A stretch of 34,172 bases of DNA, from the NCBI GenBank assembly GCA_022843805.1, contig JALHMY010000103.1:1-34172 (forward strand), read 5' to 3'. The notes beneath the pieces were generated by a model. It was not told the origin of the DNA and ran no database searches. It saw only the letters and a program-made list of their open reading frames with translations. Below are positions 2,439 to 19,386 of this stretch, piece by piece. Position numbers and translations under genes: made by a program. This DNA is from Fuerstiella sp. (lineage in GTDB: Bacteria; Planctomycetota; Planctomycetia; Planctomycetales; Planctomycetaceae). Numbering within the stretch: position 1 is the first letter of the stretch; every line of letters begins with the position of its first letter.

Positions 2439-3518
2439 TTATGCGGGCAGACGGTAAAGACGCTGAGCATTCCGGTGAAGCAGTTTTTCCTGATCCATTA
2501 CTGGCCGATCTGCAATGATGGTCCGCAACGCCATCACCCAGTCCTTAAAGGATCCACCCAGCAGACAAACAGGCCAGTCGCCACCAAACACAACTCGATC
2601 GGGCCCGAAGGAATCGAGGCAATGATTGACAACCGGGGCCAGTGATTCCGCAAACGGAATGTCTTTCGGCGCTGAAGCGATGATTCCGGAGATTTTGCAG
2701 ATCACGTTGCTGCAGGCCGCAAGTGCCTGAATATCGGATTTCCATTGTTTCGGATCATGCGGCAGGGGAGCTGAGGGTTTTGCAAGAAACGCACCGGGAT
2801 CCGCATTTCCACAGTGATCCACAATGAACATGGTCCCCGGACACTTCTTCGCCAGTGCAACGCCATCTGACAGCTCACCCGGACGCATGCAAAGATCGTA
2901 GCTAAGCCCCAATTCTCCGAGCAGGCTCATCGATTTGACAAACTGTGGACGCAGGCAATAGCCCTTTTCGGTGCTCTCGCCATGCAGCACCTGACGGACT
3001 CCCCGGATTTCGGGCTTGCCCGCGTATTTCCGGATGTATGCCGCAAACCCTTCGCTGTCCGGCCTGCCGGAAATCACGGCGGCGACGGTGGGTGTTTTTT
3101 TCGCCTGACAGATTTCGAGCAGAGTATCGGCCTCCATCACCTGCTGAGCCGGATCAATATCCACTTCCATATAGACGGCCTTGATGACATTCAAACCTTC
3201 CGTCGCCGCGGCATACTCCTTCAGCCAGTACGTGTGATTCAATACTTCCGGAGAACCTTTCAGCCATGGGAGATTCTGTGTTTTCAAATCCCAGAGATGC
3301 TGATGAGTATCAATGAGCGGAATTGAAGGGGCTGCCGACTTTGCCGCCTGCGATTTTTCCTGGCCACTTACGACTGAGAATCCTGATGAGATTGCCCCTG
3401 CCAGCAGCGCTGACTGCGTCAAAAATCCGCGGCGAGTCGAACGATCCATACCGTAAACCGATGTTACGGGCTGAGACTTTTTGAACAGTTCCGACTGATC
3501 TGTTTCATAAGAGGACAT
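2439..3518 (-). CDS. Tat-exported amidohydrolase family 2 protein
   Basis: A 359-residue metal-dependent hydrolase of the amidohydrolase-related TIM-barrel family (COG3618 type, which includes lactonases and decarboxylase-like enzymes). Around residues 26-52 it has a twin-arginine signal (STRRGFLTQSALLAG), so the enzyme is predicted to be exported folded. The mature part opens with the metal-binding IDTHQHLW (HxH at residues 72-74). Later come VDHCG, which supplies a further metal-binding His, and GGDWP, with the expected catalytic Asp. The substrate is unknown; sugar lactone hydrolysis is common in relatives. The frame stays open upstream to 3791, but that extension looks like leader sequence. 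Starts at 3518 or at 3452 (just before the RR motif) are both possible. It is divergent from the large fusion gene at 3731. Confidence 0.85.
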   Translation of the reverse strand: MSSYETDQSELFKKSQPVTSVYGMDRSTRRGFLTQSALLAGAISSGFSVVSGQEKSQAAKSAAPSIPLIDTHQHLWDLKTQNLPWLKGSPEVLNHTYWLKEYAAATEGLNVIKAVYMEVDIDPAQQVMEADTLLEICQAKKTPTVAAVISGRPDSEGFAAYIRKYAGKPEIRGVRQVLHGESTEKGYCLRPQFVKSMSLLGELGLSYDLCMRPGELSDGVALAKKCPGTMFIVDHCGNADPGAFLAKPSAPLPHDPKQWKSDIQALAACSNVICKISGIIASAPKDIPFAESLAPVVNHCLDSFGPDRVVFGGDWPVCLLGGSFKDWVMALRTIIADRPVMDQEKLLHRNAQRLYRLPA

Positions 3519-3730: not shown

Positions 3731-6700
3731 ATGAGGCACACATTCCTTCCGTCTGGAAAACCGACAACGGTGATCGCCTGCTGTCTGGCATACTGTCTGA
3801 TCATCATGGCAGCTGGCCGCCCGGATGCGAATATGAGTGGCTGTTGGGCTGCTGATGTCGCCCCGTGGACCGATCCGAACCTTTCTGTTCGTTCCGGGCT
3901 TCGCCTGTGGCTCGACGCGTCCCGGCTCGACGGCGGCTCCACGGAGAACGGCGGCAAAGTGGCAGCTTCGGGGACTGCAGTTGCTGCCTGGAGGGACGGA
4001 GCATCGCAACTCGTGCTGAGCCAGAAGGATGCCGGACTGCAGCCAAAAAGACTGCGTAGAGGAGATGCGTGGGTTGTCCGATTTGATGGAGCGGATGATT
4101 ATCTGCGGTGCACTGAAACGGCAATGAACCTGAACACCGCCACTCTGTTTATTGTTGCATCTCCACACTCCAATGCGGGCGAGTTTCGCGGCATCTTTGC
4201 TGCGAATGCCGCTGGTGAACGGGACTATGAATCCGGGCTGACCATTGACCAGGGACCATCCGCAACTCCGGCGTTTGATCAGTTGAATATCGAAGGGCGA
4301 GGATTTGGAGGAGCTGCTGGCCTGCTGAAATCTTCCCATGCCTTCAGCACTTTACACACGATTCAGGCGGTGATCGACGGGGAGACTCAAGGCGTTCGGC
4401 TCAGTCTTGACGGCCGGCCCGAAGGAACTCGTCCGTTTTCACCGTCCAGTCTTTCGTTTGATCAGCTGACCGTCGGCGCACGCTATTACACCAACGGACC
4501 GGGAGATCAGCAGGTTCGAGGCCCTTTTGCCGGCGATATAGCAGAAATCATCCTCTTTGACCGGGTGCTGACGGATGAAGAAACGATTGCGGTAAACGAT
4601 TACCTGAATTCGAAATATCAGAAGCTGAAGGACGAGCTTCTTGCGGCTGTGCCCGCCGTTCAGGCCAACGCTGTTCCTCTGGTAAGAGTGCCGTCGCCGT
4701 CGCCCATTACAATGCTGATGCCCGGGTTTACGGTCCGCGAAATTCCACTGCAGCTCACGAATGTCAACAACGTCCGATTTCGAGCAGACGGGAAGCTGGT
4801 CACGCTGGGATACAACGGCGATTTGCATTTGCTGAGCGACACTGACAACGATGGTCTCGAAGATACCGCAGAAGTTTTCTGGAAAAACACGGGCAGCCTG
4901 CGCGGCCCCATCGGCATGCTGCTGACCCCGCCTGACTATGCGAAAGGAGAGGGGGTTTTCGTCCCCAGCAAAGGCAAGGTCTCACTCATTGTTGACACGA
5001 ACAATGATGACGAAGCGGACGAAGAGATTGTTGTCGCAGACGGATGGAAGGAGATCCCGCAGAATGTGGATGCCGTCGGAATTGCAATGGACCGCGATGG
5101 CAGTCTGTATTTTGGAATAGGAACGGCCAACTACGCGAATGGATGGCTGGTTGATGACGCGGGAATTGGCAGATACGACCTGAAGTCAGACCGAGGCACT
5201 GTTCAGAAAGTGTCACCGGACTTCACGAAACGCGAAATCGTCTGCACGGGAATTCGCTTTCCGATCGCATTTGCCTTCAATCAGCATGGTGACCTTTTTT
5301 GTACAGAACAGGAAGGAGCCACATGGCTTTCCAATGGAAATCCATTCGATGAATTGCTGCATATTCAGCCGAAGCGACACTACGGATTTCCACCTCGCCA
5401 TCCTCGCCACAATCCCAACGTCATTGATGAACCGTCCACCTATGATTACTCGCCTCAGCATCAGTCCACGTGCGGAATGGTGTTTAACGAATCAGTGAAT
5501 GGTGGTCCTGTTTTCGGACCTGCAGCATGGGCCGGCGATGCGATCGTTTGCGGAGAATCCCGGGGAAAAATCTGGCGAACCTCACTGATAAAAACGCCAC
5601 CCGGATATGTGGCCTCCTCACAGCTGATTGCCTGTCTGCAGCTGTTAACGGTGGATGCCTGCGTCGCACCCGACGGCGATCTGGTTGTGGCCTGTCACAG
5701 CGGACCTCCGGACTGGGGAACCGGCCCGGCAGGAATTGGGCGGCTGTTTCGCATTGAGATGTCCGAGCCGCACGCTCCACGCCCTGTGATGACGTGGGCT
5801 GAGAGCCCGCAGGAGATTCGAATCGCCTTTGACAATCCACTGGACCCTCTCACGCTGAATCAGCTTTCAGAAAGAATCCATATTGAATATGGAGATTACG
5901 TGCGTGCGGGTGATCGTTATGAGCACCTGATTCCACCGTATGCCGTTGTTAAATCGCAGCTTGCGAAGCCTCGCTATACTTTGCCAGTTAACGGCGCGAC
6001 CGTTACGTCAGACCTGAGAACTCTGATTGTCAGCACTGATTTGATGAAGGACAGCGGTCATTATTCTGTAACGATCGGCCGCGCGGGTTCGTCGAGCACA
6101 GCCGTTGCCGCGGACTCTTCCGGTTCAGCAGACAGTCCTGATTCTGACCATCGCGCGACAACAGACACCGATGTCGACTTTTCACTGAACGGCGTAATGG
6201 CCGAGTGGGCTCCTGCCGGGTCGAAATCACCGGTGTGGTCCGGATGGCTGCCGCACCCTGATCCTGACGTTTCCCGGAAACTTCTGGCCGGTTCAGCAGG
6301 CCATGATGCGCTCTGGCCACTTTTGTCCACTGCAGGCAGGCTGACTTTGAGAACTCGCGTAAGTCTCCGGGATATTCTGAGACCTGCCGTTCAGCCTGGA
6401 TCCTCCCTTGATTACGAATGGCCGCCGGAAATCCCGGCACTGACACTCGTCAGCAGGCATGAGCTGGTGGTGGCGGCAACAACGTTCGTCGACAAGACGA
6501 TGATCGATCTGAACGTCGTCTGCAGTCGGGAAAAGGAAGATCTGAAGCTGGCTGTTCTGACCGTGCCGGCAGATTTGAAGAACCCGGTCGATCTGGTCAT
6601 CACTCTGGAAACGGATGGTTCCAGTCCGGAACTGCATGCTGTTTTGACGACGAACGAAGATCCGACGCCCCGGCCGGTGCCACTTCATCGATTTCAGCAG

Positions 6701-8020
6701 CCATGGGTGACTCCGGGCGATCAGAGTACCGCTGATGATTCGGAACAAGTCAGAGTCGCAGAGCTTCAGGGTGGCAGCTGGGCGAGAGGACGTCGAGTGT
6801 TCCACAGCGAGGCGGCTGGCTGCTTTAAGTGCCATACACTGGGTGGCGGCGCACCGGGTGGTGGCGCATTAAGTGGCAGCGTCAACAATGCCTCAGCTCG
6901 CGCGACCATTGGCCCGGACCTTGGGAATCTGATTCATCGCGATTACGCATCGGTGCTGCGAGATGTGTCGAATCCGGGATTTGCCATTAACCCGGATTAC
7001 ATCAGCCATATCGTGGCACTGAATGACGGAAGAGTGCTGACCGGCGTACTTCAGACTCAGGGCGATGCTCTTCTGATCGGCGACGAAAAAGGAACGGTTA
7101 CTCGCGTCGCGGCCAGTGACGTGGAAACACTCAGACCATCATCCGTATCAGTGATGCCGACAGGCATCGCTCAGAAACTGAGTGGCGAACAGCTGAAGGA
7201 TCTGTTGACTTATCTGTTAACCAAACCTCCCCACATGCCGCTGAATTCTCCGTTGACTGCACCACCGGTACGTACGACTGCCGAGGTTGCTGCAGCGCTC
7301 GCGGACGCCCCAAAGCAACCTCTGGCAGCTCGCCATCTGAACATTGTTCTGGTAGATGGTCCCAAAGACCATGGACCGGGAGAACATGATTATCCGGCAT
7401 GGAAGTCTGTCTGGGAGGAACTGCTGTCCGCCGCCGAGAATGCGACTGTTTCAACAGCGACGGAATTTCCCTCGGATGAACAGCTGCAGTCTGCAGACGT
7501 TGTTATCTTCTTCCAGAAGGGAAGTTTCGAAGGCGACCGCCCCGCAAAGCTCGACAAATTTCTGCAACGCGGAGGGGGAGCTGTCTATATTCACTGGGCC
7601 GTGAATGGCAATGATCAGGCGCTTGAGTTTTCGCAGCGGATCGGTCTGGCATCGTGGGGAGGCCGAATCAGTTTTCGACACGGTCCTCTGACGCTGGATA
7701 TGCACAATACAGATCATCCGATACTCAGAAATTTCCACCAGATTCAGCTTTACGATGAGAGCTACTGGAAGCTGACGGGCAGGCCGGAGGATGTAACACT
7801 TCTGGCATCCAGCACTGAAGACAACATTCCAACTCCTCAGATGTGGGTGAAGGAGGCAGGCCGGGGTCGGGTATTCGTTTCAATTCCGGGTCATTATTCC
7901 TGGACTTTTGACGATCCATTGTTCCGAATCCTGCTTCTGCGCGGAATTGCCTGGTCTGCCCGTGAACCGGTCGATCGTTTCAATGACCTCGTCGTACCGG
8001 GTTCGCGTATGTCGAGGTAG
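3731..8020 (+). CDS. LamG / sorbosone-dehydrogenase-like / cytochrome c / ThuA fusion protein
   Basis: A 1429-residue exported protein. An AGGAG lies 8-12 nt before the ATG, and the N terminus is a signal sequence ending near residue 40. Then come a LamG/concanavalin-like domain (about 50-295, LWLDASRLDGG to DRVLTDEETIAVNDYLNSKY), a PQQ-dehydrogenase-like beta-propeller of the L-sorbosone dehydrogenase type (about 328-680), and a linker with Ig-like stretches. A planctomycete-type cytochrome c domain has the heme motif CFKCH (C1031, C1034, H1035) and GPDLGNL. A C-terminal ThuA-like domain starts near 1203 (NIVLVDGPKDHG to GIAWSAREPVDRF). The propeller and heme suggest sugar or alcohol oxidation in the periplasm; ThuA-like domains are tied to sugar use, and LamG may bind glycan. 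The substrate is unknown. A Gly-rich insert (GGGAPGGGALSG) follows the heme motif. APC permease starts 37 bp downstream. Confidence 0.88.
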   Translation: MRHTFLPSGKPTTVIACCLAYCLIIMAAGRPDANMSGCWAADVAPWTDPNLSVRSGLRLWLDASRLDGGSTENGGKVAASGTAVAAWRDGASQLVLSQKDAGLQPKRLRRGDAWVVRFDGADDYLRCTETAMNLNTATLFIVASPHSNAGEFRGIFAANAAGERDYESGLTIDQGPSATPAFDQLNIEGRGFGGAAGLLKSSHAFSTLHTIQAVIDGETQGVRLSLDGRPEGTRPFSPSSLSFDQLTVGARYYTNGPGDQQVRGPFAGDIAEIILFDRVLTDEETIAVNDYLNSKYQKLKDELLAAVPAVQANAVPLVRVPSPSPITMLMPGFTVREIPLQLTNVNNVRFRADGKLVTLGYNGDLHLLSDTDNDGLEDTAEVFWKNTGSLRGPIGMLLTPPDYAKGEGVFVPSKGKVSLIVDTNNDDEADEEIVVADGWKEIPQNVDAVGIAMDRDGSLYFGIGTANYANGWLVDDAGIGRYDLKSDRGTVQKVSPDFTKREIVCTGIRFPIAFAFNQHGDLFCTEQEGATWLSNGNPFDELLHIQPKRHYGFPPRHPRHNPNVIDEPSTYDYSPQHQSTCGMVFNESVNGGPVFGPAAWAGDAIVCGESRGKIWRTSLIKTPPGYVASSQLIACLQLLTVDACVAPDGDLVVACHSGPPDWGTGPAGIGRLFRIEMSEPHAPRPVMTWAESPQEIRIAFDNPLDPLTLNQLSERIHIEYGDYVRAGDRYEHLIPPYAVVKSQLAKPRYTLPVNGATVTSDLRTLIVSTDLMKDSGHYSVTIGRAGSSSTAVAADSSGSADSPDSDHRATTDTDVDFSLNGVMAEWAPAGSKSPVWSGWLPHPDPDVSRKLLAGSAGHDALWPLLSTAGRLTLRTRVSLRDILRPAVQPGSSLDYEWPPEIPALTLVSRHELVVAATTFVDKTMIDLNVVCSREKEDLKLAVLTVPADLKNPVDLVITLETDGSSPELHAVLTTNEDPTPRPVPLHRFQQPWVTPGDQSTADDSEQVRVAELQGGSWARGRRVFHSEAAGCFKCHTLGGGAPGGGALSGSVNNASARATIGPDLGNLIHRDYASVLRDVSNPGFAINPDYISHIVALNDGRVLTGVLQTQGDALLIGDEKGTVTRVAASDVETLRPSSVSVMPTGIAQKLSGEQLKDLLTYLLTKPPHMPLNSPLTAPPVRTTAEVAAALADAPKQPLAARHLNIVLVDGPKDHGPGEHDYPAWKSVWEELLSAAENATVSTATEFPSDEQLQSADVVIFFQKGSFEGDRPAKLDKFLQRGGGAVYIHWAVNGNDQALEFSQRIGLASWGGRISFRHGPLTLDMHNTDHPILRNFHQIQLYDESYWKLTGRPEDVTLLASSTEDNIPTPQMWVKEAGRGRVFVSIPGHYSWTFDDPLFRILLLRGIAWSAREPVDRFNDLVVPGSRMSR

Positions 8021-8057: not shown

Positions 8058-9302
8058 ATGAATCAGCAAACGCTGACGCGAGAGATCGGAGTTTTCGGCG
8101 CAACGATGATGGGACTTGGTTCAATCATCGGCACCGGAGTCTTTGTGACAATTGGTACTGCTGCTGGAATTGCTGGTTCAGCAGTTTTGCTGGCCATCAG
8201 CATTGCCGCTATGGTAGCGGTCTGCAATGCGCTCAGCAGCGCGCAGCTGGCCGCCTGCCATCCGGTGAGCGGAGGTACTTATGAATATGGGTATCGATTT
8301 TTGAATCCATGGATGGGATTTTCTGCAGGCTGGCTGTTTCTTCTCGCAAAGTCGGCGTCAGGTGCAACTGCCGCACTGGGGTTTTCGGGATACCTTATCA
8401 ATCTGACGGGCATGGAGCCGTCATGGCAAAAGCCGATTGCAGCAGCGACCGTCATTTCTCTGACAACGATCGTCATCAGCGGAATACGATTGTCGAGTCG
8501 AGTCAATACAGTGATTGTTGGCATCACTCTGTGTTCGCTGGCTGCTTTTGTCATTGGCGGACTGCCGGAACTTCGCATTGAAAAACTAACCGAACAGTTT
8601 GATCCATCGTCGCTGGCGCATGCGACTGCGCTATTCTTTGTTGCTTACACCGGATACGGGCGTATTGCGACGCTGGGTGAAGAAGTCCGTGATCCGCGGC
8701 GAACAATTCCTCGAGCGATTATTGCCACGTTACTTGTTTCCATGTTTCTCTATGCCTCTGTAGCGATTATCGCTGTTGGCACCGCGGGAGCAGCGGAGCT
8801 TGCAAGTGTCACCCAGCAGCGTTCTGCTCCTCTTGAAACCGTTGCCAGAGAATTTCGATTACCTGTAGCCGGAATTGTTGCCGTCGGGGCCATGACCGCC
8901 ATGCTGGGAGTTTTGCTGAACCTTCTGCTTGGCCTCTCACGCGTTCTGCTGGCGATGGGTCGGCGAGGCGATATGCCACGAGGCACTCAGAATATCAGAA
9001 TTTCGGTGCTGACTTGTGGCGCCGTGACGTTGCTGCTTGCGATCACTGGCAGCGTCAAAACCACATGGTCGTTCAGCGCATTTACCGTTTTGATCTATTA
9101 TTCTGTGACCAATGCGGCTGCACTAAAACTTCCGCCTGACGCTCGGCTCTATCCCCGATTTCTTGCCTGGGGCGGACTGATCGCCTGTGTTTTTCTGGCT
9201 TTCTCCCTCGAGCAGAACATCTGGCTGCCCGGAATCGGCGCTCTGGTCATTGGTCTGCTATGGCACACACTGGCGTCCGTCCTGCGCCACCGCAGGATCT
9301 GA
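8058..9302 (+). CDS. APC-family amino acid permease
   Basis: A 414-residue integral membrane protein of the amino acid-polyamine-organocation superfamily. TM1 carries the family signature GLGSIIGTGVFVTIG, with the helix break that binds the substrate backbone. The loop motif GYGRIATLGEEVRDPRRTIPR is typical of the family. Hydrophobic segments continue to the C terminus and fit roughly 12 helices, although the protein is slightly short. The open frame reaches back to 7908, inside the preceding gene; I chose ATG 8058 because the first membrane segment begins about 10 residues later. It starts 37 bp after the fusion gene on the same strand, so co-transcription is likely, but a functional link is not evident. 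The substrate cannot be read from the sequence. Confidence 0.9.
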   Translation: MNQQTLTREIGVFGATMMGLGSIIGTGVFVTIGTAAGIAGSAVLLAISIAAMVAVCNALSSAQLAACHPVSGGTYEYGYRFLNPWMGFSAGWLFLLAKSASGATAALGFSGYLINLTGMEPSWQKPIAAATVISLTTIVISGIRLSSRVNTVIVGITLCSLAAFVIGGLPELRIEKLTEQFDPSSLAHATALFFVAYTGYGRIATLGEEVRDPRRTIPRAIIATLLVSMFLYASVAIIAVGTAGAAELASVTQQRSAPLETVAREFRLPVAGIVAVGAMTAMLGVLLNLLLGLSRVLLAMGRRGDMPRGTQNIRISVLTCGAVTLLLAITGSVKTTWSFSAFTVLIYYSVTNAAALKLPPDARLYPRFLAWGGLIACVFLAFSLEQNIWLPGIGALVIGLLWHTLASVLRHRRI

Positions 9303-10154: not shown

Positions 10155-10214
10155 AACTACGCCAACTCGTTCAACTACGCCAACTCGTTCAACTACGCCA
10201 ACTCTTTCAACTAC
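10155..10214. repeat. 18-bp tandem repeat over the DUF1501 stop codon
   Basis: The unit AACTACGCCAACTCGTTC occurs at 10155, 10173 and 10191, with a partial fourth unit at 10209. Read on the minus strand, each unit carries GTAGTT, so the TAG stop of the DUF1501 gene (10211-10213) is repeated in frame every 18 nt. Confidence 0.8.
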
Positions 10215-11644
10215 GACATTATGCCGTCGACGACATGGCCATGCACGTCGGTCAGGCGACGCTGCACTCCATTGTGGTAATACGTTAATCGCGTATGGTC
10301 CAGCCCCAGCAGATGCAGAATGGTGGCATGGAAGTCGTAGATGGTTACCGGGTTCTCGACAGCGAAATAGCCGACTTCATCCGATGCTCCAAAGACAATT
10401 CCTTTTTTGACACCGGCTCCTGCAAGAAAACAGCTGAACGCGTCGGGGTGATGATCCCGCCCCGGACTGTCGATTCCCTGTGTGGCCGGACCGCGGCCGA
10501 ATTCCGTGCACCAGACAACGAGCGTATCGTCCAGCATTCCCCGCTGCTTCAGATCCTGAATCAATGCAGCCACAGGCCGGTCCATGGTTGCCGCCATCTT
10601 GCCATGATTCTCCACAACGGATTCATGTGCATCCCAGTTATTTCGAGGCTGGCCAAATGCTCCGCCGCTGAATAGCTGAACAAATCTAACACCGTTTTCC
10701 AGCAGTCGGCGGGCCATCAGACAATTCCGCCCGAGTCCTGCGGAACGAGAATCATTCAGGCCATAGGCATCCTGAGTGGCTGCGGTTTCCTGACTAATAT
10801 CAGTCACTTCCGGCACGGTTGTCTGCATCTTCGCAGCAAGTTCGTAAGATCGAATTCGTGCAGACAGAACACTGTCGCCCGGATGACGACTGGCATAGTC
10901 GGTGTTGATTTGCTGAAGCAGTGACAGACTGGCAGAGCGAGCCGTCTGCGAAATGCCGTCCGGAGTTCGCAGATCCTCAATCGGTTCACTGCCCGTCTGA
11001 GTTCGGAATGCCACGCCCTGAAATGCGGCCGGGAGAAACCCGGCCGTCCAGTTAATTGAACCGCCAGCCGGCATTCCCGCCGGGTCAGGAAGCACGACGA
11101 AGGTTGGCAGGCTGTCGTTCATCGTTCCCAGACCGTAGCTTAACCAGGCACCCATGCACGGGTAGCCGTTCAGTGTAAAGCCGGAGTTCATATGAAAAGT
11201 GGCGGGGGTGTGATTGTTGGACTTTGCCACCATGGATCGAATGATGGCCATGTCGTCAGCACATCCTGCCAGTGCCGGTAACAGATCACTGACCCACGCA
11301 CCGCTTTGTCCATGCTGAGCAAACTGGAACGGACTTTTCATCAGGCGGCCTGGCTGGCCGAAAAATCCTTTGTTTTCCCCTTTATTGTCCAGCGTTTTGC
11401 CGTGAAGTCGTTCCAGTTCCGGCTTGTAGTCAAACGTGTCGATATGGCTGACACCGCCGCCGCAAAAAATCTGAACGATCCGGCTGGCACGCGGCGCAAA
11501 ATGTGGCCGAATGGCGGAACTTACGGTTGTTGAACCGTCAGCTCCTGCGTCCTGATGCAGCATCCAGGCGAGTGCAATACCACCAAGGCCAGCACTGCCG
11601 AGGTTAAGACCGCTGTGGGTCAGGAATTCTCGTCGAGTATTCAT
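10211..11644 (-). CDS. DUF1501 domain protein, Tat-exported
   Basis: A 477-residue protein. It starts with a twin-arginine signal (NTRREFLTHSGLNLG) and continues as a DUF1501 domain, a fold related to sulfatases and alkaline phosphatases. Typical blocks are QIFCGGGVSHIDTFDYKPEL, NHTPATFHMNSGF, LVVWCTEFGRGP and the C-terminal GRDHHPDAFSCFLAGAG and TIYDFHATILHLLGLDH. The biochemical function of the family is not established. It almost always sits beside a PSCyt1/DUF1549/DUF1553 protein, as here: that gene ends 9 bp upstream, so the two form an operon. They are thought to act together at the cell surface, possibly on sulfated polysaccharide, which is inference. The length is normal. Confidence 0.93.
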   Translation of the reverse strand: MNTRREFLTHSGLNLGSAGLGGIALAWMLHQDAGADGSTTVSSAIRPHFAPRASRIVQIFCGGGVSHIDTFDYKPELERLHGKTLDNKGENKGFFGQPGRLMKSPFQFAQHGQSGAWVSDLLPALAGCADDMAIIRSMVAKSNNHTPATFHMNSGFTLNGYPCMGAWLSYGLGTMNDSLPTFVVLPDPAGMPAGGSINWTAGFLPAAFQGVAFRTQTGSEPIEDLRTPDGISQTARSASLSLLQQINTDYASRHPGDSVLSARIRSYELAAKMQTTVPEVTDISQETAATQDAYGLNDSRSAGLGRNCLMARRLLENGVRFVQLFSGGAFGQPRNNWDAHESVVENHGKMAATMDRPVAALIQDLKQRGMLDDTLVVWCTEFGRGPATQGIDSPGRDHHPDAFSCFLAGAGVKKGIVFGASDEVGYFAVENPVTIYDFHATILHLLGLDHTRLTYYHNGVQRRLTDVHGHVVDGIMS

Positions 11645-11653
11645 GTTCGCCCG

Positions 11654-14600
11654 CTAATGGATGTAAAGAAATTCGGTGGCATTCAAAAGCGTCCAGCAGA
11701 GTTGCTGCAGCCCATGCTCTCTGACAAGTCGTGTTCCGGCTTCAAGTTCTTCCGCAGCAGGATCACGTCCGAAGCATATCTGCCATGCTCGGCGCATGCC
11801 TGCGGATTCGCGATCAGTGTCGGGCAGCTCCGCAGCCACTCGTTGAGCAAGATGTTCTGACTGGCGCTGGACAAAGGAATTGTTCATCAGTGCCAGTGCG
11901 GCCAGCGGGGTTGTTGTCACCCGGCGAGCCGGCGTTTTGATCGACGGGTCCGGACAATCCAGCGCGTCCATCATGGAACTCTTGCCGCTGTTGATGTTTG
12001 CCCGATAAATTGATCGCCGATTGAATTCCGGTCCTGTCAGGTCTTTTGGCTGATAAAAATCGGAATTGAAGCTGGTAACGAGAAACGGCTTGAAGCTGGG
12101 ACCACCCATCTGAGCATTCAACTGTCCGGACACAGCCAGCATCGCATCGCGAACAATTTCTCCTTCCAGTCTCCGCGGAGTAAATCGCCACAGCAGTGTG
12201 TTGTCAGTGTCCACGGCGGCAGCCTGTTCATTGTACGCGGATGATTGCTGCCATGTGGCAGACATCAGAATGAGTTTTTGGATATGCCTGATCGACCACG
12301 GAGATGGACCTTCGGTGAACTCGGCGGCCAGCCAGTCCAGCAGTTCCGGATGAGTGGGTCTGGCACCGTTGAATCCGAAATCATTCGGCGTTTCGACGAT
12401 CCCGCGACCGAAATGATGATGCCACAGGCGATTCACCAGCACACGAGATGTCAAAGGATGTTCTGGATGGGCCAGCCATTGCGCCAGCTGCTGCCGACGG
12501 GCGGCTTCCGGAGCATCAGCCGTTAATCCCAGGTCACCTGAAGGTGATCGAATCACTGACAGCCCCGCCGGAACAGCAACCTCCGCCGGCGAATTTACAT
12601 CACCGCGGACCAGCCGGAAAGTGGGCGCCGGCTGCTGCCGTATTCCACAATACGAAATCGGTGGCTGTGACAGTGAGACGGTTTGCCGCTGAAGTTCGCG
12701 AAGTGTGTCCCTCTGCGAGAAATACTTCTGACGCTGCTCGTCGGACATGGCTGCCAGCATTTGTTCGTTCGTTACGACCACGCCGCCATCCGGCCCGGCA
12801 TTGAAGGAGTCAGCAATTTCATCATCGGTCAGAACTTTGTCATAGAGCGAAGCCGACTCAATCTCAGCGTTCAGGAATCCGTTTCCTGCGCCGAGGTGCC
12901 GCAGTCCCAGCAGCACATGAGATTTGCCCGCTTCATAGCTTTGCAGTGAACCTTTGGTATAGCGGCTGCCCCAGGGCCGTCCATTGCGATAGACGGCGAT
13001 GGAGTGATCGCTGCGGTAGACGATCGCCATATGAATGAGTTCGCCTGGTGCCGATGTTTCCTGTGCCGCCGACAGATCCTGCGTTCGCTGAAATCCGGTC
13101 GACCCGGCAATCCAGCAGCCCGGCTCACGTTCTGCAAAAACTATCGCATCAAACCGAACTCCATTGTCGGACTCGAGCGTAATCACGCCTCCTCCACCCT
13201 GTTGCAGAGTTGGCAGAGCGACCCATGCTTCGAGTGTTTTCTCAGAGATACCGGAGTTCAATGGGGCGGTTCGCAGGTACTGCCCGTTTCCGCTGACAAT
13301 CAGCCGTCCGTCACGAACGCTGGCGCCGCCGGTGAGCTCGCCGTGCAGTGCCCCCACCACATCTGCTGCATCCTTCTGAAATGTCCAGCGGGCGAGCGGC
13401 GCCGGGGGATATCTTCGAGCCGGCGAAAGGGATGCCGGATCCGGAGTTGCATCGGGAGAGGCACTGAGTTTTTCTGCAGCAGCCGTTCGAGCGACCTGCT
13501 CCATCTCTTTGAGCTGTTCCTGCAAATCGGCATTTTGCTGGCGGAGGGCCGTTAGCCTGGATTCCCGTGATTGACGATCTGATTCCGATTCGACCGCACG
13601 CTCACCATGTCGGACACCTTCAAAAACTGCCTTGAAGCGATAATAGTCTTCCTGTGAGACAGGATCGAATTTGTGAGAATGACAGCGAGCACAGTTGATG
13701 GTCACGCCCAGAAACGTCTGTCCAACAACACTCACCAGATCCTCAAGCTCTTCTTCGCGAGTAATCTTCTTTTGAGTGACATTCGCCTGAGCATTTCCAG
13801 CCTGATCCCATGGACCACAAACCAGAAGGCTGGTGGCGATCATGCCTTCAGCACTGGCTGCCTGATCGGGATGGGAGAAGTTCTGTACGTCGCCAGCAAT
13901 CTGTTCCTGAACAAAAATGTTGTAGGGCTTATCGCTGTTGAAAGCATTGATGACGTAATCACGATAGTGCCATGCATTGGGACGGAATCGATCGTATTCA
14001 AAACCCTGGCTTTCCGTGTAACGAGCGACATCCAGCCAGTGGCGTGCCCAGCGTTCGCCATAATGCGGGGAATCAAGAAGCTGATCGATCAGTTTCTCAA
14101 TCGCATTCGGAGAGTCATCGGCCACAAAGCGGCTGATTTCCTCCGGTGAAGGCGGAAGCCCCGTCACATCAAAATACAGACGGCGAATTAGCTCTCGCCG
14201 ATTGGCCGGGCTGGCGAGCGTCATACCTCGCTCTTCCAGTTTCGCCAGCACAAATGCGTCGATCGGATTTTTCACCCGCTCTGATTGTTTGACCACGGGA
14301 ACGTGCGGACGCACAACAGGTTTCAGCGACCACCAGTCCGCTCCGGCTCGCGAGCTGGTTGTGTAGGCGAACGGGTCGATGGTTTCGGACTGGCCCCACT
14401 GAGCGCCACTGTCAATCCATTTCCGGAACAGTAATTTCTCGTCAGCGGACAGTGGCTTTTTGGGCGGCATTTGATCGCTTTCGATCTGTTGCCACAGGAG
14501 GCTTTCACTGGGATTACCCGGGACAATAATGGGTTGTTCGTGTTTCAGGACTTTGGCCCGTGAGCTGAGATCGAGATCCCCTTTGAGGTCGGTGGAGTTG

Positions 14601-14764
14601 TGGCATTCCAGGCAGCGAGCTGCGATCAGCGGGGCGACAGATTTGTCGAAATCAGGACGGCCAGTTGCGGATTCATCCGAGGCAGCGGAACTTCCGGGCG
14701 CGAACGCATTCAGAAATACTGCAAGATGGAGCACACATGGCACCAGTTTCATCATACCTGTCAT
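11654..14764 (-). CDS. PSCyt1 / DUF1549 / LamG / DUF1553 protein
   Basis: A 1036-residue exported protein, first gene of a two-gene operon with the DUF1501 gene. A signal peptide is followed by a planctomycete cytochrome-like domain with CLECH (C51, C54, H55). DUF1549 covers about residues 165-370 and ends with a second heme-type motif, CARCH (C358, C361, H362), in NCARCHSHKFDP. Next come a coiled-coil-like Gln/Glu-rich segment, a LamG domain (about 450-650, VGALHGELTGG to YDKVLTDDEI) and DUF1553 (about 720-1000, LVNRLWHHHFGRGIVETPNDFG, RRLEGEIVRDAMLAVSG). GGGAG lies about 10 nt before the ATG. The role is probably electron transfer or carbohydrate binding at the envelope; no substrate is known. 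It is divergent from the PAS-LuxR regulator. Confidence 0.93.
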   Translation of the reverse strand: MTGMMKLVPCVLHLAVFLNAFAPGSSAASDESATGRPDFDKSVAPLIAARCLECHNSTDLKGDLDLSSRAKVLKHEQPIIVPGNPSESLLWQQIESDQMPPKKPLSADEKLLFRKWIDSGAQWGQSETIDPFAYTTSSRAGADWWSLKPVVRPHVPVVKQSERVKNPIDAFVLAKLEERGMTLASPANRRELIRRLYFDVTGLPPSPEEISRFVADDSPNAIEKLIDQLLDSPHYGERWARHWLDVARYTESQGFEYDRFRPNAWHYRDYVINAFNSDKPYNIFVQEQIAGDVQNFSHPDQAASAEGMIATSLLVCGPWDQAGNAQANVTQKKITREEELEDLVSVVGQTFLGVTINCARCHSHKFDPVSQEDYYRFKAVFEGVRHGERAVESESDRQSRESRLTALRQQNADLQEQLKEMEQVARTAAAEKLSASPDATPDPASLSPARRYPPAPLARWTFQKDAADVVGALHGELTGGASVRDGRLIVSGNGQYLRTAPLNSGISEKTLEAWVALPTLQQGGGGVITLESDNGVRFDAIVFAEREPGCWIAGSTGFQRTQDLSAAQETSAPGELIHMAIVYRSDHSIAVYRNGRPWGSRYTKGSLQSYEAGKSHVLLGLRHLGAGNGFLNAEIESASLYDKVLTDDEIADSFNAGPDGGVVVTNEQMLAAMSDEQRQKYFSQRDTLRELQRQTVSLSQPPISYCGIRQQPAPTFRLVRGDVNSPAEVAVPAGLSVIRSPSGDLGLTADAPEAARRQQLAQWLAHPEHPLTSRVLVNRLWHHHFGRGIVETPNDFGFNGARPTHPELLDWLAAEFTEGPSPWSIRHIQKLILMSATWQQSSAYNEQAAAVDTDNTLLWRFTPRRLEGEIVRDAMLAVSGQLNAQMGGPSFKPFLVTSFNSDFYQPKDLTGPEFNRRSIYRANINSGKSSMMDALDCPDPSIKTPARRVTTTPLAALALMNNSFVQRQSEHLAQRVAAELPDTDRESAGMRRAWQICFGRDPAAEELEAGTRLVREHGLQQLCWTLLNATEFLYIH

Positions 14765-16917: not shown

Positions 16918-19299
16918 CTATTTTTCGGGACGCATGGGTGTGAGCAGAAGGCGATTTCGGGCGACTTCTTCGACTTTGGTTCGTGAATAGGCAAGCGGAA
17001 AGTACTTCCCATCGGCCCAGAGAGGCAGAAGATCGTCGTAATGAGGACTCCCCGGCTGTCCGGATTGCCCAGGAGCACTGCTGGCCTGTCCCAGATCCCA
17101 GTCCGCCAGATCGAACACATGACGATAGGTCGCTCCATGGATCTGCCGGAAATCACGATCGTGACGGGTGTTCATGGGAGTATTCGCGTCGCCGCCTCGT
17201 GGTACGGATCCTGTGTTAAAGGCACGTGCATACTCTGGCCCAAGGTTCTCAAACGGATGCCTGAACGTTGCCAGATGCAACTGGCCCCACTTCCATGCAG
17301 ACTCGTCATTCCCCAGAAGTTCCTTCGTCCTCAAGACAGCCTTCGACAGAGTCTTAAACAGCAATTCATTGCGAGCAGACACCGGCTGAACTCCGAACCA
17401 CGATTCATCTGGTTCCTCGAGATGGTTCAGGATCACCGCGATGCTGCGCAGGTCCCCACGCTCTGTCACTTCCGGCAATGTGCCATGCAGAGCATACATG
17501 GCAGTCATGAGCTCCTGAATCCAAACAGCGTACAGCGGCCCTGCTGACGAATCCGCGCTGAGCTGACAGTCCCAGCTCAGAATTTTTTCAGACCAGATCT
17601 GCAACTCTGCCGGAAACTCAATCCTGCGAATGATGGCCTGCAGAGTTCGTGCGGGCAGCGACATTGTGTCATGCTGAATGCTTTGAAAGGACTGAATCGT
17701 GAACGGCTGCTCCGTTTGCAATCGCTCTTCAATCCGCCGAAAACGATAAGGGGCCGACCAGTCAAAAGCGACGAAATGCGAATAGCCATCTGGAACGATC
17801 CGATGATTGGCGGTCGCCAGCCAGCCTGACTTCGGGTTAAACGACTGTGGCAATTCCGTGACGTCGAGATAGCGGTCCCATTCGTAGTCATCGGAACTGC
17901 CTGGAACCGGCAGAAGGCCATTACCATTGCGTCGCACGGGAGTTGCCGCTGCGGCAATCCAGCCGATTTTCCCTCCGCGATCGGCATAAACAAAGTTCAG
18001 GCAGGGTATCTTCCATCTGGAGATGGCTTTCATGAACTGTTCGTGATTTTGTGCACGACTCACCGCCAGACTTGCAAGATAGGCAGCACTGCCCGGTTCA
18101 CTGCCAGCCCATTTGAGAGCGATGGCCGAATTCTTTGCCTGATCCTGATAAACCACGGGACCGTGTCGAGTGTAACGGAGCTCGAGTTCAACCGGGGTGC
18201 TTTTCCCTAACACCTCGATGGATTCACGTACAACGGTCATGGGTTCCCAGCGATCGCCGATCTGATAGAGATCCGGATTGTCCGGATGGGTTCGCTCCAC
18301 AAAAAGATCGGCCTGATCTGTACCGATGATCGTAAAACCCCATGCAATCTGTTCGTTGTGGCCGATGGCAACACCTGGAAGGCCGGGTTCTCCGCTTCCG
18401 ATCACATTCCATCCGGGTGCGTTCAGATGAACGAGGTAGCGAAGCGAAGGCAGAGTTGTGGAACGATGAGGATCGCTGGCAAGCAGTGGCTTTCCTGAGG
18501 CCGACAATCGTCCGTCGACGACCCAGTTATTGCTTTCGGACGTGGATGGTGTAAATCGAAGAATGCGGGTTGCCGTACGGAGGCCACTGAGAATCTCAGT
18601 CGTAATCAGGTCGAGCTGCAGTTGAGCGTCAGGAGTAAAAAGAGTGGGTGGGTCAGTCGGAGCCAGCAACCGTGCTTTTTCGAGGCCGACAGCCTGAATC
18701 AACAGAGCGCGGGATACTTCCTTTTCCCAGTTGCCGCTCATGATAATTCCGGACATACGCCCCAGAATATCTTCCGGCTGCCAGTGTTTGGGTCGGTAAC
18801 CAGCCAGCTGAAACTCGATCGGCAATCGATCCTGATGAGCATCGATACAAGCATTGATCCCCTGAGTAAACGCGGTGGCGATTTCCAGAGTGTCTTCAGA
18901 GTACCCTGTCCACTCCGCCTTCATATCACCGCGATAGCGAAGCAGTCGTGCGAACCGATCTGCAGCAATGGCTTCTTCGCCGAAAATCTCGGCAGTCTCC
19001 CCAACCGCGATTCTGCGCCAGAGATCCACCTGGAAGAGCCGATCCAGGGCCATTGAATATCCCTGAGCAAAAAACAGATCGTGACTGTTTGATGCGTAGA
19101 TATGAGCGACACCCCACTGATCGCGAATAATCTCAACCGACTGCTGCAGTCCTGGCAGTTCGACCTGGCCGTCGATCTTTGCCAGTACGCTGCGTGCCTG
19201 CGCGAGTAGCTTCGCGGCCTGCTCATCAGCGTCACCGGCAACTGATCCTGTTTCCGTCATCATGATAACCACCGACAGTAAAAGAAACCTCGTGAACAT
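16918..19299 (-). CDS. penicillin acylase family Ntn-hydrolase, periplasmic
   Basis: A 793-residue precursor of the N-terminal-nucleophile hydrolase family that includes penicillin G acylase and acyl-homoserine-lactone acylases. It opens with a signal peptide (FTRFLLLSVVIMM). The alpha chain carries RDQWGVAHIYASN and AQGYSMALDRLFQVDLWRR. The expected self-cleavage site is before Ser256 in SESNNWVVDG, which would become the beta-chain nucleophile. VAIGHNEQIAWGFTIIGTDQ and the C-terminal GQSGQPGSPHYDD are further family blocks. It removes acyl groups from amides in the periplasm, but the substrate (antibiotic, AHL or peptide) cannot be told. Start 19299 was chosen because AGGAGG lies 7 nt upstream. 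It follows the ABC permease by 87 bp on the same strand. Confidence 0.9.
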   Translation of the reverse strand: MFTRFLLLSVVIMMTETGSVAGDADEQAAKLLAQARSVLAKIDGQVELPGLQQSVEIIRDQWGVAHIYASNSHDLFFAQGYSMALDRLFQVDLWRRIAVGETAEIFGEEAIAADRFARLLRYRGDMKAEWTGYSEDTLEIATAFTQGINACIDAHQDRLPIEFQLAGYRPKHWQPEDILGRMSGIIMSGNWEKEVSRALLIQAVGLEKARLLAPTDPPTLFTPDAQLQLDLITTEILSGLRTATRILRFTPSTSESNNWVVDGRLSASGKPLLASDPHRSTTLPSLRYLVHLNAPGWNVIGSGEPGLPGVAIGHNEQIAWGFTIIGTDQADLFVERTHPDNPDLYQIGDRWEPMTVVRESIEVLGKSTPVELELRYTRHGPVVYQDQAKNSAIALKWAGSEPGSAAYLASLAVSRAQNHEQFMKAISRWKIPCLNFVYADRGGKIGWIAAAATPVRRNGNGLLPVPGSSDDYEWDRYLDVTELPQSFNPKSGWLATANHRIVPDGYSHFVAFDWSAPYRFRRIEERLQTEQPFTIQSFQSIQHDTMSLPARTLQAIIRRIEFPAELQIWSEKILSWDCQLSADSSAGPLYAVWIQELMTAMYALHGTLPEVTERGDLRSIAVILNHLEEPDESWFGVQPVSARNELLFKTLSKAVLRTKELLGNDESAWKWGQLHLATFRHPFENLGPEYARAFNTGSVPRGGDANTPMNTRHDRDFRQIHGATYRHVFDLADWDLGQASSAPGQSGQPGSPHYDDLLPLWADGKYFPLAYSRTKVEEVARNRLLLTPMRPEK

Positions 19300-19306
19300 G
19301 TCCTGT

Positions 19307-19312
19307 CCTCCT
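19307..19312 (-). promoter_or_regulatory. strong Shine-Dalgarno deciding the acylase start
   Basis: The minus strand reads AGGAGG, 7 nt before the ATG at 19299. An upstream in-frame ATG at 19326 has no such site and lies before this one, so 19299 is the preferred start. Confidence 0.75.
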
Positions 19313-19386
19313 GGCATTGTCGGCAACTTTAGACGCTGTGCTAAAATTCGTCACTGGAACTGAGATCGAGCTGAATGCTAATCCTG

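Follow-up and report, generated by a model that had tools for sequence, protein, structure and literature searches.

A conserved six-module fusion of propeller, haem c and ThuA domains in Fuerstiella sp. and related planctomycetes

Layout and conservation of the fusion protein

The window analysed here is the whole 34,172-nucleotide stretch of Fuerstiella sp. DNA given by positions 1 to 34,172 of contig JALHMY010000103.1. It contains an intact open reading frame at 3731-8020, on the forward strand, encoding a multi-domain protein of 1429 residues. Six modules are predicted along this chain, in the order LamG, propeller, Ig-like, PA14-like, haem c and ThuA. They follow a signal-like N-terminus of Sec type (3731..3853, on the forward strand like all features of this gene; approximately residues 1-41), in which a hydrophobic run leads to CWA-AD when the sequence is read by eye. 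Judged from this N-terminal reading, the protein is of exported type, and the N-termini of two relatives, L048 and L078, begin like that of the window protein. According to the original prediction, a single exported chain combines LamG, propeller, haem and ThuA modules. This is borne out, with all four modules correctly recognised and kept as a unit in relatives; the Ig-like and PA14-like domains between propeller and haem had been overlooked.

Two AlphaFold2 models were built from alignments of relatives. Model 1 covers residues 317-1429 (predicted local distance difference test score, pLDDT, 84.1; predicted template modelling score, pTM, 0.74) and model 2 covers residues 683-1192 (pLDDT 80.4, pTM 0.61). 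Five modules are seen in the models: the propeller (327-679), the Ig-like domain, a beta-sandwich, the haem domain and ThuA. The models were compared with solved structures using Foldseek and VIA; in VIA one domain can fill the match list, and the absence of other folds from a list was not used as evidence.

Relatives at E<=1e-100 are present in 30 of 170 genomes of the family and 13 of 58 genera, the window's own included. A survey of domain order among homologues, suggested together with the original prediction, finds the fusion order kept in one piece in 24 of these 30 (own included), each aligning from the N-terminal domain to the end of ThuA, the other 23 at 47-67% identity. Among the remaining six, G012 has the full span in two pieces of one frame, the matches in G060 and G063 are cut by contig ends, G117 is without much of the N-terminal part, and G013 and G002 match in the propeller-to-haem core only. 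A public genome collection yielded 19 loci. Roseiconus nitratireducens (locus L023) is among the carriers and can be cultured. A sample of 392 genomes from the wider phylum contains 10 with a match, and the window's family accounts for five of these. Within the window's own genome, the haem, propeller or ThuA regions of the query match at 38 further places, in some cases two in one protein. No report of this architecture was found in the open-access literature, subscription papers lying outside the search.

In all, 48 homologous frames were gathered in addition to the window protein. The CxxCH motif is present in 48 of these 49; the exception, L027, is a frame that starts after the motif. Alignment A1 uses 36 of the 49, leaving out near-copies (L010, L028-L031, L034, L036 and L054) as well as L026, L027, L048, L052 and L053. 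Alignments A2, A3 and A5 hold 26 of 35, 24 of 33 and 28 of 36 eligible rows, respectively, near-copies and pieces again being left out.

Several relatives carry only some of the parts. The core alone is found in L056, L079 and L080, the core with a C-terminal PA14 domain in L055, the core with ThuA in L092, and the LamG region with the core in L077, while the L078 frame ends before the haem. Inspection of an unrooted tree of 40 cores revealed that the 32 rows labelled as full group together with L019 among them and that the other forms lie outside; the full label was given by similarity and not by six checked domains in each, and L021 and L051 are cut by contig ends. L019 is labelled as core plus ThuA, its match starting at residue 317. 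The distribution suggests that propeller, Ig-like, PA14-like and haem domains form the base unit, around which LamG and ThuA have been gained or lost.

Features of the individual modules

The six-bladed propeller (4709..5770; residues 327-680), assigned from the AlphaFold2 model, Foldseek and VIA, has the fold of soluble glucose dehydrogenase (sGDH) and AA12 enzymes and is related to DUF7133 and TIGR02604. It passes the Pfam cut-off for DUF7133 (37.6 bits against 27) and falls below those for GSDH (PF07995; 18.8 against 25) and for the TIGR02604 propeller (55.7 against 122.2). TIGR02604 is likewise not passed in any of the five relatives L009, L016, L020, L055 and L056 (45.7-80.9 bits). The best Foldseek matches of the propeller model are 2ism, sGDH and AA12. 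In VIA, the model matches 6jt5 with Z 31.6 (root-mean-square deviation, rmsd, 2.9 over 310) and 1qbi with Z 31.2 (2.9 over 320), and Z lies between 28.6 and 31.6 for sGDH, AA12, archaeal and bacterial sugar dehydrogenases and E. coli Asd. Next below these dehydrogenases come HHIP (24.9), the RPA3624 lactonase (24.8), Drp35 (24.3) and SMP30 (23.9). The kinship shows by fold: a sequence search of the A2 profile against the PDB gave a single chance match (E 1.8) and was set aside.

The original prediction was of a sorbosone-dehydrogenase-like propeller in an enzyme that could oxidise a sugar. The residues of the propeller speak against oxidation of aldoses by sorbosone or glucose dehydrogenase chemistry. 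Alignment by hhalign with six GSDH stretches from the window's own genome (L083-L088; E 1.8e-8, profile columns 23-242 only) places their conserved His, kept in all six, at Val446 of the window protein and the Asn of their Arg-Asn pair at Phe510. The step from these GSDH residues to His144 and Asn229 of 1c9u was made by eye, the 1c9u numbering being checked; we take His144 to be the catalytic residue and Asn229 to belong to the pyrroloquinoline quinone (PQQ) site. The His144 position is Val in 25 of 26 aligned sequences (Asn in one) and the Asn229 position is Phe in 25 (Tyr in one). The position of the active-site residue Arg228 corresponds to R509, which is kept in all 26. Positions of Lys377, Arg406 and Arg408 tentatively read S610, L639 and V641, in a hand alignment by motif outside the hhalign range. 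The propeller does not look degenerate, because D447 is invariant, as are several other polar residues, His, Asp, Arg and Lys among them: as alignment columns, D447, R509, D540, E541, H550, H557, D566, Q576, H577, R611, K613, H656 and D661 are kept in 26 of 26 sequences. N346 and N347 are kept in at least 90% and D642 in 25 of 26. From its residues, the propeller appears not to be a normal sugar dehydrogenase, with another chemistry rather than none, and their losses give a clear prediction that it is not PQQ-dependent in the usual way. A distant relative, L092, scores above the Pfam cut-off for GSDH (34.1 bits) and just under that for SGL (25.9 against 26.3).

The genes for PQQ synthesis are consistent with these losses. 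PqqC exceeds its cut-off in one of the 170 family genomes, G056, and PqqE likewise only in G056, which is not among the 30 carriers of the fusion gene; neither is therefore over its cut-off in any carrier. Signals for PqqE that stay under the cut-off appear in 169 of the 170 genomes and in each of the 14 controls, which leaves the cut-off as the only informative measure; PqqC gives no signal in any of the 14 controls. The window's own genome has 11 GSDH-family matches over cut-off, several in long open frames, and no PQQ synthesis gene over cut-off; the best solved relative by sequence of one of these stretches, L084, is HHIP. E. coli carries Asd without making PQQ. It is the residue losses that carry the argument against PQQ, because the cofactor could be scavenged and the His-bearing GSDHs of the same genome face the same absence of genes.

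The haem c domain (6770..7225; residues 1014-1165) is of the type found in TIGR02603 proteins and in Kustd1711, the Kuenenia diheme cytochrome c. Its TIGR02603 score is below the cut-off in the window (60.2 bits against 68.15), and all five relatives scanned (L009, L016, L020, L055 and L056) pass at 76.3-90.5 bits; Cytochrom_C passes in L009, L016 and L056 of the seven relatives scanned with Pfam. An hmmsearch connects the domain to Kustd1711 (7zs0) with E 7.1e-18, VIA matches it with Z 14.7 (rmsd 2.6 over 143), and Kustd1711 chains rank first in Foldseek with model 2. The window chain has one CxxCH, the haem attachment motif CFKCH (6821..6835; residues 1031-1035). C1031, C1034, H1035 and M1142 are kept in all 36 sequences of A1, window included. 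Met1142 (7154..7156), the predicted distal ligand, aligns with Met292 of Kustd1711, a column at which the mutant chain reads Cys; the M292C mutant is named in the accessible part of PMC11791136. By homology, the haem ligands are His and Met. The same part of that paper reports potentials of about +350 mV for Kustd1711, a His/Met cytochrome; they depend on calcium, which lies close to the haem iron. By analogy, a high haem potential is plausible in the window protein.

After the haem motif lies a Gly-rich insert of 16 residues (6842..6889, exact ends uncertain). The spacing from CxxCH to IGP is 27 residues in the window and 11 in the other 35 A1 sequences; in the wider list of 48 motif-bearing sequences, near-copies included, only the window has the insert, and L053 has 12 residues there. 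The insert has low pLDDT in both models. Its DNA contains an imperfect 15-bp direct repeat at 6842/6857 with 11 of 15 bases alike. The original prediction had called the insert unusual, and it is real, its 16 extra residues being private to this genome. A functional role was rejected given its absence from every other sequence and the short direct repeat, and for the same reasons slippage in a loop suffices to explain it. The insert is a private loop expansion, which probably explains the TIGR02603 score of the window.

The ThuA domain (7328..7990; approximately residues 1200-1420) passes PF06283 with 87.2 bits against a cut-off of 33.4, and Foldseek matches it to 4e5v, 4jqs and 4pxy. Its motifs KDHG.GEHDYPAW, RHG, DESYW and GH..W.FDDP are kept in 24 of 24 sequences. 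Since these motifs and the propeller residues are fully kept, neither domain looks degenerate.

Six ThuA matches, that in the fusion gene included, are found in this genome. One lies in the 1479-residue frame L089, where ThuA is followed by a TIGR02604 propeller (207 bits, over cut-off), a long helical-looking stretch and a TIGR02603 haem domain (104.4 bits, over cut-off); the L089 gene adjoins a GFO/IDH/MocA oxidoreductase gene. Read by eye, L089 has a His (DTH) near the pocket position at which the window reads NVD. That the three parts occur in two different orders within one genome suggests that ThuA, propeller and haem work together.

Three modules remain. The LamG or concanavalin-A-like domain (3893..4630; approximately residues 55-300) matches Laminin_G_3 at residues 119-284 with 25.8 bits, just below the Pfam cut-off of 27.6. 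Among the seven relatives scanned, LamG is over cut-off in L009, L016 and L020 (36.2, 31.2 and 31.3 bits, respectively) and without a Pfam match in L018 and L019, L018 nevertheless aligning from residue 46; in L055 and L056 it is not expected, as the matched part excludes the LamG region. L077 has the LamG region by alignment, without a Pfam match. The Ig-like domain (5777..6187; residues 683-819), assigned from the model by VIA, matches S-layer SbsC and Sap domains with Z 11.5 and CopC with 8.1. The PA14-like sandwich (6182..6730; residues 818-1000), also assigned by VIA, matches 6qe7 (11.1), Cea1A (10.1), protective antigen (9.0), and Epa1, Epa6 and a Marinomonas PA14 domain (8.3-8.7); the match is moderate, and VIA warns that Z near 8 can reflect a common arrangement. 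The Pfam scan gave no PA14 match in the window. In L055 a Pfam PA14 domain (39.8 bits) stands at the C-terminus, a position in the chain that differs from that of the PA14-like sandwich in the window. Adhesins often carry modules of the LamG, Ig-like and PA14-like kinds.

Neighbouring genes and proposed function

Upstream of the fusion gene, on the reverse strand, a divergent gene (2439..3518) encodes an Amidohydro_2 protein (Pfam, 132.6 bits) with a twin-Arg-like signal (RSTRRGFL in its N-terminus). It scores 120 against a cut-off of 400 for the fuconolactonase equivalog, far below. A gene on the forward strand (8058..9302), 37 bp downstream of the fusion gene, encodes a permease that Pfam and NCBIfam assign to the APC amino acid type. 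Both genes had been proposed to complete a pathway from sugar to lactone to acid. They are real, and neither is part of a conserved unit: tblastn (E<=1e-3) found relatives of the amidohydrolase and the permease at none of 36 orthologous loci, window excluded; flanks of 1.5 kb or more are available on either side of the gene at 26 of these loci, with less at the other 10, and none extends past about 10 kb. The pathway finds no support.

An operon was also considered and dropped, as no gene recurs at most of the 37 loci (window included) whose neighbours were clustered. The commonest clusters are FtsW/RodA (seven loci, annotated from one member), sulfatase (six, two members scanned) and PSD/PSCyt (five), which are not functionally coherent; the L068 fusion protein missed its cluster, a longer overlapping frame having been picked. 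A promoter scan found 3 candidates against a shuffle mean of 1.9, and 6 terminators were found against 4.0, both close to the shuffles.

Other genes near the fusion gene differ between lineages. In one lineage (L057:2838-7706, L058:12199-17034, L059:11987-16819 and L035:3-1274) a second giant haem protein is encoded directly upstream; scanned in L057 only, it has FG-GAP repeats and passes TIGR02604 and TIGR02603. In L014 and L015 a GDSL and 3-keto-disaccharide-hydrolase gene lies two genes upstream of the fusion gene (Pfam on L015 only), with a protein without a Pfam match (scanned in L015) encoded in between, and in L016 such a gene lies further away. DUF1080 proteins are described as frequent in planctomycetes in a passage of PMC5673643. 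PEP-hydrolase-like (PF09370) and UPF0261 genes stand at or near the fusion gene in L060, L067, L069 and L042 (both scanned in L067). Elsewhere in the window, the reverse strand carries tandem genes (10211-14764) for a DUF1501 protein and for a PSCyt1-PSCyt2-LamG-PSD1 protein, the latter with its own LamG; relatives of the two are found at 4 and 5 of the 36 orthologous loci, respectively. A penicillin-amidase family protein (16918-19326, reverse strand; 715 bits) is weakly PvdQ-like, with 64.1 bits against a cut-off of 950.

The domains and their order, the predicted fold of five modules, the haem ligands by homology, the conservation of the unit, the loss of PQQ residues and the lack of PQQ synthesis genes over cut-off in carriers were computed; from these we infer substrate binding, redox catalysis, an electron route and a role for ThuA. 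We tentatively propose that the protein may be an exported, glycan-active redox protein with a non-PQQ propeller site, a His/Met haem relay and a ThuA domain that acts on the oxidised product. The LamG and PA14-like sandwiches would hold a glycan. The propeller has a remodelled site, in which Val-Asp447 stands at the catalytic His position, Phe510 replaces Asn and Arg509 is retained. It would catalyse the first reaction, which is most likely an oxidation that relies on a metal or on a cofactor other than PQQ made by the cell itself. Electrons would flow through the His/Met haem c to an acceptor in the periplasm. The C-terminal ThuA domain would act on the oxidised (keto) sugar, an assignment made by analogy to the thuAB route for 3-keto-disaccharides; thuAB is tied to 3-keto sugars in the accessible part of PMC4765114. 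In support of this, the pairing of propeller, haem and ThuA can be argued to be functional because the same parts recur reordered in L089, beside the GFO/IDH/MocA gene, and the 3-keto-disaccharide-hydrolase genes near the fusion gene in L014 and L015 also speak for it.

Several points weigh against this proposal. An oxidative role for the propeller is deduced from the fused haem and from the fold, whose best-known catalytic residue is missing here, and HHIP, which has the same fold (VIA Z 24.9), serves binding only. Sugar need not be what the LamG and PA14-like modules bind. Only one small lineage has the 3-keto-disaccharide-hydrolase neighbour, and the reaction of ThuA itself appears unsettled in the literature as far as the accessible texts go. 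The sole study found of a TIGR02604 protein, in the accessible part of PMC5342196, reports beta-galactosidase activity of Lac161_ORF7 and not oxidation. We infer that a glucose-release assay alone cannot separate oxidation followed by elimination from hydrolysis, and the result may equally mean that such propellers are hydrolases.

A doubtful alternative, the best of the rivals, is a metal-dependent hydrolase or lactonase like SMP30, RPA3624 or Drp35, in which Asn, Asp, Arg and His residues bind a metal and the haem has some other task, such as docking or the transfer of electrons in another place. In its support, lactonases of the propeller type and related proteins follow directly after the sGDH/AA12 group and HHIP in VIA (Z 24.8-23.9), the SGL score of L092 is just under its cut-off, N346, N347, D447, H577 and D642 are kept, and the Lac161_ORF7 protein is reported (PMC5342196) to release glucose from lactose. 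Against this, sGDH is clearly the closer structural match (Z 31 versus 25), and a haem motif kept in 36 of 36 sequences is hard to explain in a hydrolase.

A bolder form of the redox proposal, which we consider unlikely, makes the protein a single-chain glycan cleaver outside the glycosidase families. The propeller would oxidise a unit of a bound polysaccharide in a new site that replaces the PQQ pocket, the high-potential haem would take the electrons, and ThuA would cleave or rearrange the keto-sugar, glycosidic bonds thereby giving way to oxidation-elimination at the envelope. If true, such breakage of glycans by oxidation would be a route that glycosidase families do not cover.

It is rather improbable that the protein is a surface scaffold for adhesion and electron transfer, in which propeller and sandwiches only bind and the haem belongs to an electron chain of the envelope. 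Several adhesins are among the VIA matches, and HHIP, a propeller of the same fold, binds hedgehog in a non-enzymatic role. Polar residues of both the propeller and ThuA are strictly conserved, which points instead to active sites, and we know of no ThuA domain that acts as a binding module.

A PQQ-dependent aldose dehydrogenase with its own cytochrome is highly unlikely. It would use scavenged PQQ to turn sugar into lactone, which the amidohydrolase would open; the fold (Z 28.6-31.6 to the sGDH/AA12 group), the kept Arg228 position, the GSDH score of L092 and the possibility of scavenging fit this reading. The losses at Val446 and Phe510 in 25 of 26 sequences each, the retention of His in the GSDHs of the same genome, the tentative S610/L639/V641 readings, the lack of PqqC and PqqE over cut-off in the 30 carriers and the absence of the amidohydrolase from the 36 loci all oppose it. 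Missing cofactor residues in the propeller and a missing linkage with the amidohydrolase, which the original prediction had set out as contradicting it, are thus both found; in ThuA, for which we know of no cofactor residue, the motifs are strictly kept. Finally, the idea that unrelated genes were joined by chance or by faulty assembly, for which only the odd length speaks, is refuted: genomes from two collections share the order, with 45-64% identity along almost the whole protein, and the full types cluster on the tree.

Relation to known systems

The window protein is real, conserved and more elaborate than first described; its kind is known but uncharacterised, and its arrangement is new. 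Planctomycetes encode many large haem-propeller proteins of uncharacterised function, and in this subfamily propeller, haem, ThuA and sandwich domains are seen to go together. An intact unit with its haem would also offer a built-in optical reporter of substrate oxidation.

The nearest known relatives are the PVC-type heme-binding CxxCH proteins (TIGR02604 with TIGR02603; DUF7133), which have the same propeller superfamily and haem domain. The window protein differs in that both TIGR scores lie below their cut-offs and in its order of LamG, propeller, Ig-like, PA14-like, haem and ThuA. Its group is a sister group of the TIGR02604 PVC-type proteins and not a member, and the protein is a reshuffled sister of these proteins, as the parts of L089 illustrate. 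Lac161_ORF7 (AGW45552), from a clone assigned to Chthoniobacter, resembles the PVC type, with a TIGR02604 propeller and a TIGR02603 haem domain in one protein. As described in the accessible part of PMC5342196, it is set apart from the window protein by a HEAT repeat, the lack of LamG and ThuA, and a reported hydrolysis of lactose.

Individual modules have counterparts in better-studied proteins. The propeller shares its fold (Z about 31) and the Arg228 position with soluble PQQ glucose dehydrogenase and AA12 enzymes, and departs from them in the change of His144 to Val and of Asn229 to Phe, in a GSDH score below cut-off and in carriers that have no PQQ synthesis genes over cut-off. The haem domain has the fold and the CxxCH/Met pair of Kustd1711, which has two haem domains, whereas the window protein has one, inside a large fusion. 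The ThuA domain belongs to the same family and fold as the rhizobial ThuA of trehalose utilisation; that of the window protein is exported-type, fused to a haem protein and marked by strictly kept motifs of its own.

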